11,753 bases of DNA from the NCBI GenBank assembly GCA_021797295.1, contig JAKAAA010000032.1, positions 1-11,753 of the forward strand. The letters are read 5' to 3'. The notes under the pieces were generated by a model. That model worked only from the letters and a program-made list of their open reading frames with translations. It made no database searches and was not told the DNA's origin. How positions within the stretch are numbered: position 1 is the first letter of the stretch; every line of letters starts with the position of its first letter. This DNA is from Thermoplasmata archaeon (GTDB lineage Archaea > Thermoplasmatota > Thermoplasmata > Thermoplasmatales > Thermoplasmataceae). Below, in pieces: positions 8,132 to 11,726 of this stretch. The position numbers and the translations under genes are program-made.

Positions 8132-8216
8132 GCAGAGGTTACCGAGTTAGGACAAAGGCGCTAGATTAAGGGTCTAGTCTCGAAGGAGTTCGCGGGTTCA
8201 AATCCCGTCCTCTGCA
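8132..8216 (+). tRNA. tRNA-Leu, anticodon AAG as written
   Basis: An 85-base class II tRNA. The acceptor stem GCAGAGG (8132-8138) pairs fully with CCTCTGC (8209-8215), followed by discriminator A and no encoded CCA. The D region keeps the leucine-type CAAAGGCG; its stem is ACC/GGC, so the first pair is A-C. The anticodon stem CTAGA/TCTAG (8161-8165, 8173-8177) encloses the loop TTAAGGG, so bases 34-36 (8168-8170) are AAG. The long variable arm (8178-8191) has a CTC/GAG stem, and the T arm GCGGG-TTCAAAT-CCCGT ends in a G-U pair. The long variable arm, A73 and the loop all indicate leucine. An A at position 34 is not expected in archaea, which read CUU/CUC with GAG. The tRNA identity is secure; the decoding is uncertain. 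Confidence 0.9.
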
Positions 8217-8303
8217 TAGTTCTAAAGATTTAAAATAAGAAAATCTAAATAAGTGTTATCACAATATTGCGAAATTTTATATATAGAATTTTAATAAACA
8301 CAT
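8217..8303 (+). promoter_or_regulatory. Spacer with TATA box for the STAS-like gene
   Basis: TTTTATATATA at 8275-8285 is centred 24 bases before the ATG at 8304, which makes a textbook leaderless archaeal promoter. It gives the small gene a message of its own. The bases between the tRNA and the box are A/T-rich, without a clear hairpin. Confidence 0.6.
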
Positions 8304-8603
8304 ATGGAAAAAATGATTGTAGCCAGCATGATAGGCATATATCCTACAACACGGGAGTCATGTGATGATTTATTCAAAAAGATTAATGAATCAATCGAAG
8401 AAAACATAATAATAGATTTTAAAAATGTTATTGGCATTACAAATTCCTTTGCATCGCAGTATCTGTTTAACATAAATAAATGTAAAAAGAATATTATGGA
8501 AAAAAATAAAAATAAGAATATAGTCTCCATGTTAGAAATAACGAATAAAATTAAAAAACCTGCTAAAGTTGAATACCTGGAAATTACACATTTTCAACTT
8601 TAA
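8304..8603 (+). CDS. Small STAS-like protein (DUF4325 type)
   Basis: This 99-residue cytoplasmic protein has a strand-helix core, NIIIDFKNVIGITNSFASQY (34-53), that matches the DUF4325/STAS-like pattern of hydrophobic strand, Asp-Phe, hydrophobic positions, then a Ser/Thr-rich turn leading into a helix. SpoIIAA-type STAS proteins carry their regulatory phosphorylated serine at this turn; S48 and T46 are candidates here (inference). The N-terminal part, SMIGIYPTTRESCDDLFKKI, has the Thr-Arg-containing helix seen before the STAS strand in this group. The C-terminal part (about 62-85) is lysine-rich. DUF4325 proteins commonly occur beside GHKL ATPases; here the partner is encoded convergently, with stops three bases apart. 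The start is fixed by a strong TATA box 24 bases upstream. The assignment rests on pattern recognition, not on a search. Confidence 0.65.
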   Translation: MEKMIVASMIGIYPTTRESCDDLFKKINESIEENIIIDFKNVIGITNSFASQYLFNINKCKKNIMEKNKNKNIVSMLEITNKIKKPAKVEYLEITHFQL

Positions 8604-8606
8604 TTT

Positions 8607-9404
8607 TTATTCTATGGTATCATAAAGATTTATTTCGTTGAGAACCTTTTTGTTTTTAAATATTATTGATACTAAAGTTCCATTCAATTGATAATTTTCA
8701 GGTAATTCATAGACCTTTTTGCTCCCATTTAAATAATGATATATACCCTTGTTTGAAATTATAATAAATTCATCTTCGTTTCTTTTCTTCATTATATTGT
8801 TTATGGATAGTAATCCTCTGCCTCTCTCAGCTTGATCAATATTACCACAATTTTTTGTTGACTCTCCTAATATTGCCTTTTCTATGGCCTCGCAATCATT
8901 TTTGAATGGAAGCGAATGATCTTTAAAATTACCCGGTATTCCTATCCCATTATCATAGACAGATATTTCAAGCCCTAATCTTTTATAATATTGTACCACA
9001 ATGTAATTTTCCGTTGATTTTGAATGATCTTTGATATTAGTATATAATTCACCTATTATGTATCCAATCACATTTTTATTTCTTATGTCAAATTTTGAGT
9101 TTAAAATGGTAAATGTCCGATCCAATAGATCGTCATAATTATTTTCATTTAAAGTTATTACCGGCATAAAATTTTCGTTTTCTTCCAAGCTATTATAATG
9201 GGCTGTAATAAAGTCTATATAACTTTTTACGGGACTGTTTGAATCTTGTATCGTTAAAGGTATATTATCTCTTAAATATGGGAAAACCAATAATAAAAGT
9301 TCTGTGTCTATAAAACTAAATTTTGACAAGTCGACAGTATCTGTTTTTTCCAGATTTTCTCTGATAATCAGAAATTCTTTGTACCAATCTAAAAGACTTT
9401 TCAT
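8607..9404 (-). CDS. GHKL ATPase with N-terminal STAS-like region (anti-sigma/RsbW-like)
   Basis: A 265-residue soluble protein. The C-terminal part is a histidine-kinase-type ATPase: N box GELYTNIKDHS (118-128; E119, N123, H127), G1 box YDNGIGIPG (150-158), G2 box RGRGLLSINN (194-203) and a final strand, NGTLVSIIF (241-249). No dimerisation helix with a phosphorylatable His, no membrane segment and no response-regulator gene are seen, so it is closer to SpoIIAB/RsbW-type kinases than to sensor kinases. The N-terminal segment (about 20-48, VDLSKFSFIDTELLLLVF) looks like a STAS-type strand-helix unit, so the protein may carry its own pseudo-partner. The ATG at 9404 is the only reasonable start; an A/T box at about 9421-9430 lies 17-26 bases upstream. 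It is convergent with the STAS-like gene. The target of the pair is unknown. Confidence 0.8.
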   Translation of the reverse strand: MKSLLDWYKEFLIIRENLEKTDTVDLSKFSFIDTELLLLVFPYLRDNIPLTIQDSNSPVKSYIDFITAHYNSLEENENFMPVITLNENNYDDLLDRTFTILNSKFDIRNKNVIGYIIGELYTNIKDHSKSTENYIVVQYYKRLGLEISVYDNGIGIPGNFKDHSLPFKNDCEAIEKAILGESTKNCGNIDQAERGRGLLSINNIMKKRNEDEFIIISNKGIYHYLNGSKKVYELPENYQLNGTLVSIIFKNKKVLNEINLYDTIE

Positions 9405-9410
9405 TGTGTG

Positions 9411-9430
9411 ATATAAATGTTTTAAATATT
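9411..9430 (-). promoter_or_regulatory. TATA region of the GHKL-ATPase gene
   Basis: On the minus strand AATATTTAAA (9430-9421) and ATTTATAT (9418-9411) both resemble box A. Only the first is at the correct distance for the start at 9404. The spacer to the vapC stop (9445) is only 40 bases, so read-through from vapBC is also possible. Confidence 0.35.
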
Positions 9431-9444
9431 AATTTTTGTTTAGG

Positions 9445-9861
9445 TTATAAAACGTTATTTAACGGGATTCTTTTAACTCCAACTATGTTATTAAAATCAG
9501 AATCGTTGGTAACAATTTCGCCAATATCATTTTCTATACAGCAGGCTACGTGTATTGAATCTCGTGGGTCTAATCTATATTTTTTCATTAAATCGATAGC
9601 GGTTCTCAATTCTTTTTCTCCCACATTCAATATTTTGAGTTTAGGGAATGTAAGGAATTTTTTGCCCTCAATGATTGCAGTTTCTCTGTCTTCAAACCTT
9701 TTGATCGCCCACACTACTTCATCCCAGGTCAGGGTTGACGTCGAGGCTAATATTTTTCCCTCAAATATTGCCTTCAATATATTTTTAGAATTTATCGCAT
9801 CCTCATCAGAATCTGGGGATAACGCTGCGTATATAAAGACGTTAGAATCTATGTAAATCAT
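9445..9861 (-). CDS. vapC: PIN-domain ribonuclease toxin VapC
   Basis: This 138-residue PIN-domain toxin of a type II toxin-antitoxin pair has its four acidic catalytic residues intact: D5 in MIYIDSNVFIY, E48 in TWDEVVW, D101 in LDPRDSIHVA, and D120/D122 in TNDSDF. VapC enzymes cleave specific RNAs (tRNA, rRNA or mRNA) using Mg2+, and the antitoxin blocks the site. I start at 9861 (MIYID), which lies inside the antitoxin gene and is preceded by TGAGGA, a ribosome-binding-like run. ATG 9870 is an alternative start. The open frame continues up to 9936, but those extra residues do not look like the family. The gene overlaps the antitoxin stop by 20 bases in another frame, the arrangement of a translationally coupled pair. 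Confidence 0.88.
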   Translation of the reverse strand: MIYIDSNVFIYAALSPDSDEDAINSKNILKAIFEGKILASTSTLTWDEVVWAIKRFEDRETAIIEGKKFLTFPKLKILNVGEKELRTAIDLMKKYRLDPRDSIHVACCIENDIGEIVTNDSDFNNIVGVKRIPLNNVL

Positions 9862-10093
9862 ATTCCTCATCAAGTATATCTTTAATAGATCTTGAGTTAA
9901 GATTTGGTATCTTTTTCGGTACATTTGCAAAATCATTGACTATCTCTTCTGGTTTGTTTTTGACTTCTATTATTATTTTGCCATCTTCCAAATTCAATTC
10001 AACTTCAGTCCCTCTCTTTAAGCCCATCTTAACTCTGATATCTTTAGGGATTACGATTTGGCCTTTTTCATTTATGGTCCTTTCAAGTTTCAT
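9842..10093 (-). CDS. vapB: AbrB-type antitoxin VapB
   Basis: An 83-residue protein with an N-terminal SpoVT/AbrB swapped-hairpin DNA-binding domain (about 1-45): TINEKGQIVIPKDIR (6-20), then GLKRGTEVELNLEDGKIII (24-42). The C-terminal part (about 46-83), rich in proline and charged residues and ending DEEYDLHRF, is the usual toxin-binding tail that wraps the PIN domain. It represses its own operon in related systems. The stop falls inside vapC. An in-phase upstream ATG is not available: ATG 10097 reads out of frame. Confidence 0.88.
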   Translation of the reverse strand: MKLERTINEKGQIVIPKDIRVKMGLKRGTEVELNLEDGKIIIEVKNKPEEIVNDFANVPKKIPNLNSRSIKDILDEEYDLHRF

Positions 10094-11423: not shown

Positions 11424-11726
11424 TACTGGACACGCCTGGTTCAGTCCAGGTGTTTTGGTAGCGTCCTCCACTTCTTCTCCTCCCCGCACCCTCTCAGCAT
11501 CGATGGTCCAGGATACCGTTGTTCCCTTCCGGGCCTGGCGGGTTTTCCCGGTAAATTGTATATATATCTTCCTTTGAAGTTATATATGCAAACCCCCAAT
11601 CCAAAAGGACAGAGACTCTACGATTCCATGGAGACTGCCAAAGGCCTGGTTGCCCTTGCCAGGCAGTCGCCCCCGCATTTCGGCACGGGTCACAGGGAGG
11701 GCCTGGCTCCCCGGTCTAGTCCAGTA
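11424..11726 (-). ncRNA. Signal recognition particle RNA (archaeal 7S)
   Basis: About 303 bases, the usual archaeal length. The ends pair as helix 1: TACTGGAC on the RNA at 11726-11719 with GTCCAGTA at 11431-11424. The 5' Alu part contains the U-turn motif TGTGA (11694-11690) in CCCTGTGACCCG. The SRP54-binding helix 8 is unmistakable: GCCAGGCCCGGAAGGGAAC (11539-11521) with a GGAA loop (11530-11527) and the adenine-rich side of the symmetric loop, AACAACGG. Helix 6, the SRP19 site, is at about 11590-11557; it is mostly A-U pairs closed by a CTTC/GAAG stem. The RNA scaffolds SRP54 and SRP19 for membrane targeting of nascent proteins. It is much richer in G+C than its surroundings. The promoter is only partly inside the window: the T-rich run at 11745-11753 on the minus strand is at the box A distance. 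Confidence 0.95.

Follow-up and report, generated by a model that had tools for sequence, protein, structure and literature searches.

The window analyzed here, i.e., the 11,753-nucleotide stretch of DNA at positions 1 to 11,753 of contig JAKAAA010000032.1 from a Thermoplasmata archaeon (assembly GCA_021797295.1), raises the question of what a GHKL ATPase and a small STAS-like protein, a combination in which the preliminary description had recognized the parts of a partner switch, may regulate in an archaeon, a group which is devoid of bacterial sigma factors. The pair itself was confirmed and comprises a 99-residue STAS-like protein (S) and a 265-residue kinase (K), while the nearest characterized systems are not the sigma-factor partner switches but the sigma-free VapK/VapS and CapK/CapS pairs described in PMC13373217 (EMBO J 2026). 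The reading favored here, to which we assign a probability of roughly one half, is that S and K constitute a two-gene phospho-switch of this same type.

The gene specifying S, the putative phospho-substrate and inhibitor, is located at positions 8304 to 8603 on the forward strand and was classified as STAS-like (DUF4325-type) by profile and fold, while that of K, a SpoIIAB-type GHKL kinase with a STAS-like N-terminal part, is located at positions 8607 to 9404 on the reverse strand; the two genes thus face each other with stop codons three bases apart, exactly as had been described. Both are situated in a low-GC accessory stretch (8217 to 9500), the GC content of S and K being 26% and 28%, respectively, compared to 37% for the whole window. 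The S protein of the window scores 18.8 bits against DUF4325 (PF14213), i.e., under the curated cutoff of 23 bits, which is passed by its homologs in genomes G005 (30.1 bits) and G008 (23.1 bits). Its predicted fold is STAS-like and resembles that of RsbS in the VIA second look, while Foldseek returned nothing for S at E < 0.001, the STAS assignment being founded on sequence evidence together with the VIA second look. Ser48, which is situated close to where STAS helix 2 begins and is the candidate site of phosphorylation, is encoded at positions 8445 to 8447 (forward strand), and residues 81 to 99 form a C-terminal tail (8544 to 8600, forward strand) that is predicted with low confidence, its final two blocks having pLDDT values of 62 and 50. 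Sixteen of the 27 aligned S sequences end in L, I or F, and by analogy to the tail of VapS that of S is a possible partner-binding peptide.

For K, the anti-sigma factor SpoIIAB ranked first among the structural matches of the VIA second look. Its ATP-binding boxes are complete, in agreement with the preliminary description, and the ATP-site residues of the N, G1 and G2 boxes, including the N box E119 ... N123 (9036 to 9050, reverse strand), are invariant in all 29 aligned rows. No sensor-kinase domain was found on K, again as described, while the STAS-like character that had been ascribed to its N-terminus is suggestive, as indicated by the order of its elements and a weak profile match to S. 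Domain searches detected neither an HTH domain on K nor a wHTH on S, which stops after its short low-confidence tail, and no position could be assigned in K to the aromatic residue involved in ssDNA binding by CapK/VapK. An NCBIfam search with the window pair returned no meaningful match, and PADLOC matched neither S nor K of the window. The claim that each gene is preceded by its own TATA box was not supported, the TATA-like boxes of S and K being at chance level in a scan; a terminator-like site between the two genes was not detected either, the terminator scan being likewise at chance. An assembly of the same genome is broken at the tRNA end and inside K (window positions 8216 and 8693), with 476 bases of the window missing there.

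A PDB search with S profile A4 returned as its top match the Escherichia VapS protein in the VapS-VapC structure 9z7o (E-value 4.2e-4), which also ranked first for the narrower profile A2 (E-value 0.011), and the VapS sequence visible in that alignment matches DUF4325 at 2.1e-14. A search with the VapS sequence yielded no plasmid record and a single faecal phage record. According to PMC13373217, both CapK and VapK combine a GHKL kinase with a STAS part, and phosphorylation of the STAS protein by the kinase frees a toxin or a promoter: ssDNA activates CapK, which modifies a conserved serine of CapS by phosphorylation, while VapS binds and inhibits VapC, which is abolished by the substitution S48E and requires tail residues 94 to 116. 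In the same account, vapKSC shields E. coli from a phage, ssDNA activation of VapK itself is a prediction, and all 443 capK genes are immediately followed by capS. The word ‘archaea’ occurs in the available main text of that paper solely in the reference list, and our searches of the open-licence literature returned no archaeal kinase-STAS pairs.

The serine that had been placed at the switch position of S proved to be strictly conserved, as Ser48 is present, directly preceding a conserved Phe, in each of the thirty S proteins that are linked to a K gene. The 25 S loci at which no K was found comprise nine with Ser, twelve with Glu, one each with Ala, Gln and Gly, and one decayed copy, while two proteins in which S and K domains are fused possess Ser (Nostoc) or Ala (Falkowbacteria, L029) at this position. 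In the profile alignment, VapS Ser48 falls on residue 47 of S, one before Ser48; the VapS chain in 9z7o has 134 residues, compared to a tail ending at residue 116 in the available text of PMC13373217, which implies an 18-residue tag and makes VapS Ser48 residue 66 of the chain. Position 46 is occupied by Ser or Thr in 28 K-linked S proteins, the remaining two having Gly (L060) or Pro (L119). Thr46 is a second candidate acceptor in S, so that Ser48 is a tentative assignment, a point to be set against the phospho-switch.

Ten of the twelve Glu copies represent a single paralog per genome, present in all ten genomes of the genus as an open frame of 79 to 86 amino acids without K and without the C-terminal tail, in which residue 46 is Ser as well. 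Nitrilase-type and radical-SAM genes adjoin this paralog in the four loci read (L065, L066, L067 and L073), an example being G000:C6:11729-11929 (L066 1471-1716). VapS S48E loses toxin binding (PMC13373217), and the occurrence of Glu at position 48 in a K-less paralog throughout the genus is likewise counted in favor of the phospho-switch, against which count the Ser retained in nine K-less S copies and the Ala at position 48 in L029.

K was matched in ten of 81 relatives, one of these matches being a fragment with stops, while S-type proteins were found in 27 of 77 family genomes. Across the phylum, DUF4325 matches were obtained in 27 of 389 genomes, with 29 places listed. Four of these fall in reading frames of 406 or 3663 residues that do not correspond to S, one having been inspected directly: the match at contig C84 of the window's own genome is false and falls within a 406-residue frame resembling a membrane transporter, while those in G004 and G009 (406 residues) and in G139 (3663 residues) were dismissed on frame length. 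A set of 58 loci was compiled from these searches together with Methanobrevibacter, a viral contig, a Clostridioides phage, two bacterial plasmids and a Falkowbacteria genome, and an S match was obtained in 56 of these (none in L049 and L163). Co-occurrence in related genomes was checked in this set, and a separate K gene was found to adjoin S in 29 of the 56 loci (thirty with the window), two further loci, on a Nostoc plasmid and in Falkowbacteria, encode both domains in one protein, and at 25 no K was found within a searched stretch that often extended just 1.5 kb to each side. This tally begins from S and leaves out seven loci of bacteria or phages (L030, L031, L120, L122, L123, L124 and L125) at which a K-type gene is present but S was not detected. 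A broad search furthermore identified at least 1706 K-type clusters among the 7998 candidates scored, some of which are named ‘anti-sigma regulatory factor (Ser/Thr protein kinase)’ by their sources.

The earlier view that the genes are convergent rather than part of one operon is true of the window, yet 25 of the thirty pairs are arranged as K-then-S on one strand (K being split or short in five of these, i.e., L041, L045, L148, L151 and L156), while two are arranged as S-then-K and three are convergent. The convergent layout was observed solely in the genus of the window, namely in the window itself, in G002 (with a 4-bp overlap) and in G008 (with a 173-bp gap), whose K proteins form one clade with P0002-P0004 (99/99 support; layout known for the first three), and this form looks derived. 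In G005, the 3' terminus of S and that of an interrupted K are located at two contig ends that both carry GTGTCCCACAC, as would be expected with an insertion sequence between facing genes. Clustering of 373 neighbor ORFs from 33 loci revealed no third gene common to the pairs, the sole neighbor groups being local, i.e., an ATPase-like family in five loci of four genomes and chromosomal genes common to two or three loci.

Decay of the pair was found to be one-sided. K is split, shortened or cut while the S frame persists in G041, G019, G394, G352, G358 and G005, and of a lost convergent K facing a second S copy in G002, just the 17 C-terminal residues remain (76% identity, E-value 0.004). S was found in all ten K-positive genomes except G011, whose K is the fragment with stops, and loss of S with retention of an intact K was not seen among the archaeal relatives. 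S itself is damaged in G001 and G437, shortened in G394 (to 72 amino acids) and G018, and lost in G003; the frameshifts in K and S come from draft genomes, and some may be errors. Loss of K while S stays is expected if S inhibits and K releases, as K loss would then be safe and loss of S alone unsafe, and these roles are also compatible with the simultaneous loss of both genes, as in G003. We therefore infer that S is the inhibitor and K the trigger, within the limits set by the damaged S copies, the K-only bacterial and phage loci and possible draft errors.

The pair is located beside a tRNA-Leu gene (aag; 8132 to 8216, forward strand; ARAGORN), the fixed landmark of a variable spot that extends from a UvrD-type helicase gene to an HD gene. 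The same tRNA-Leu lies between the helicase and HD genes in all six sister loci read (L104-L109), and these two genes are found in all ten genus genomes, while the cargo differs among the six sister intervals. The G003 interval is nearly empty; a stretch of 196 bases in it that is 78% identical to the beginning of K and the terminal part of vapC points to a deletion that removed S along with most of K and of vapBC. G006 and G007 carry an HTH_10 regulator and a DUF1059 protein (Pfam on G006), while G004 and G009 carry a 243-residue predicted secreted protein (L108 5148-5879 and L109 5206-5937, both on the reverse strand), which returned no Pfam match when the G004 / L108 copy was searched and which looks halocin-like by eye. 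In G001, the cargo includes an S gene broken at an N and, not far from it, an AbiEii-type gene; AbiEii-type toxin genes (PF08843) were found close to the pair or to a copy of S at three loci (L129, L140 and L107). In G002, an inverted repeat (L016 7339-7354 and 7608-7624), discerned by eye, flanks ~290 bp between tRNA-Met and S, which may be the remnant of a small mobile element. The window also contains an archaeal SRP RNA at positions 11424 to 11726 (reverse strand; RF01857, 173.8 bits).

The adjacent VapBC had been put forward as a possible target, and control of these genes in a vapKSC-like manner, with S holding VapC besides or instead of VapB, would be in keeping with VapS as the top PDB match of the S profile, with the union of VapK, VapS and VapC in bacterial vapKSC (PMC13373217, available text), and with the position of the VapC-like PIN toxin gene (9445 to 9936, reverse strand; PF01850, 7.7e-19), which is co-oriented with K and terminates 40 bp upstream of it. 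However, this vapC is overlapped by the gene for its own VapB-like (MazE/AbrB-type) antitoxin (9842 to 10093, reverse strand; PF04014, 5.6e-11), relatives of this VapC were found in 35 of the 77 family genomes, and in each of the nine other VapC loci read (ten were returned, one being the window) VapB is adjacent, while K and S were not found in the surrounding stretches. Furthermore, a motif screen of 5 kb, or of the available and in some cases short stretch, around 39 other K/S loci detected no PIN motif, although such a screen can miss. VapBC is thus disfavored as a target, its control by the pair being improbable, and it looks like an ordinary, self-standing neighbor outside the conserved pair. 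A switch acting on general transcription, in which S or K would sequester a TFB/TBP-type factor in place of sigma, is highly improbable: the match of K to SpoIIAB is compatible with it, but a fold match names no target, no linked transcription factor was recognized, and the characterized DUF4325 relative VapS acts on a toxin and not on sigma (PMC13373217, available text).

Two further explanations dispense with a role in host defense. The pair could be a self-serving module by which a mobile element tunes its own genes after host damage, as suggested by its sporadic occurrence in relatives, its low GC content and its variable tRNA-side spot, by the pairs carried by a Clostridioides phage, an Alicyclobacillus plasmid and an IMG/VR contig, by the phage families phrog_3364 and phrog_5816, and by the annotated transposases by the Alicyclobacillus plasmid copy and the transposase-like ORFs (by eye) near some archaeal copies. 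Nevertheless, no integrase or replication gene was recognized beside the window pair, and all ten genus genomes possess the helicase and HD genes on either side; this explanation is rather unlikely. It is also unlikely that S and K are an ordinary accessory pair unlinked to defense, whose convergent layout is a neutral rearrangement without antisense control; the confinement of this layout to one genus, the variable gap between the stops and the chance-level TATA and terminator scans are consistent with such a scenario, while its persistence across several species of the genus is a weak argument against it.

The phospho-switch of the VapK/VapS-CapK/CapS type is supported by the conserved pairing, the intact kinase boxes, the predicted folds, the invariant Ser and the repeated loss of K. 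In the resting cell, S would bind and inhibit a partner protein; upon a signal, which by analogy to the bacterial relatives is most likely ssDNA arising through damage or infection, K would bind ATP and phosphorylate S on the conserved Ser near the start of helix 2, and phosphorylated S would let the partner go, which would then be active. Given that no third gene accompanies the pair at many loci, the partner is probably encoded at another genomic site, and a protein is a more likely partner than a promoter, because S is without a recognized DNA-binding domain. Hints at a link to defense or phages are provided by the phage families phrog_3364, which matches K, and phrog_5816, which matches both K and S of a relative, and by the first 400 positions of the PADLOC DrmA model, which are matched by K of three of four relatives and by S of one of three. 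Counting against the phospho-switch are the seven bacterial or phage loci with K and without S, the decay of S in G001, G437, G018 and G003, the missing PADLOC match of the window pair and the unplaced ssDNA-binding aromatic residue. In the DrmA model PDLC02567 (1750 positions), the first 400 positions match K and then S of the archaeal relative L034, which suggests either a switch fused to a DISARM helicase or a model artefact; the available text of a YprA-helicase preprint (PMC12458937) mentions neither STAS nor GHKL.

A broader proposal, which we consider doubtful, is that the pair represents a sigma-free STAS phospho-switch serving as an archaeal antitoxin-type lock: S would silence an effector in trans and K would release it on DNA damage, the core tail-less Glu paralog would be a permanently ‘phosphorylated’ form kept in every genus member, K would decay first since its loss leaves a safe locked state, and the facing genes would add RNA coupling at their 3' ends. 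The kinase-STAS trigger was described in 2026 from bacteria, and the same kind of pair is found here in several archaeal lineages; as archaea have no sigma factors to switch, the pair isolates the sigma-free use of STAS phosphorylation. Thanks to the paralog with Glu in place of Ser and to the one-sided decay of K, the roles of inhibitor and trigger can be tested directly.

Comparison with known systems places the pair nearest to the sigma-free ones. The predicted folds of K and S resemble those of SpoIIAB and RsbS, respectively, yet, in contrast to the setting of the SpoIIAB/SpoIIAA and RsbT/RsbS partner switches, archaea have no sigma factor, and K of the window possesses an extra N-terminal part. 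Bacterial DUF4325 genes exhibit the same two domains, either beside an ATPase gene (Alicyclobacillus plasmid) or fused (Nostoc plasmid); these, as well as phrog_3364 and phrog_5816, are uncharacterized, and those read are co-directional, unlike the window pair. CapK and CapS share with the window pair the combination of a GHKL kinase and a STAS substrate encoded by adjacent genes, while the HTH of CapK, the wHTH of CapS and a downstream immune operon were not recognized in the window. VapKSC differs in being a bacterial three-gene operon (K, S and C), as the window pair is archaeal, with S on the opposite strand to K, and without a conserved VapC partner, the nearby VapC having its own VapB. 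VapK, compared here by its description, consists of a STAS part followed by a GHKL part without HTH, while in K of the window the GHKL part is clear and the STAS part tentative. S of the window possesses the STAS domain, short C-terminal region and conserved Ser/Thr that define VapS, albeit with the Ser register off by one, and the two systems thus have in common a GHKL kinase, a small STAS/DUF4325 protein with a short tail and a conserved Ser, and an accessory setting.
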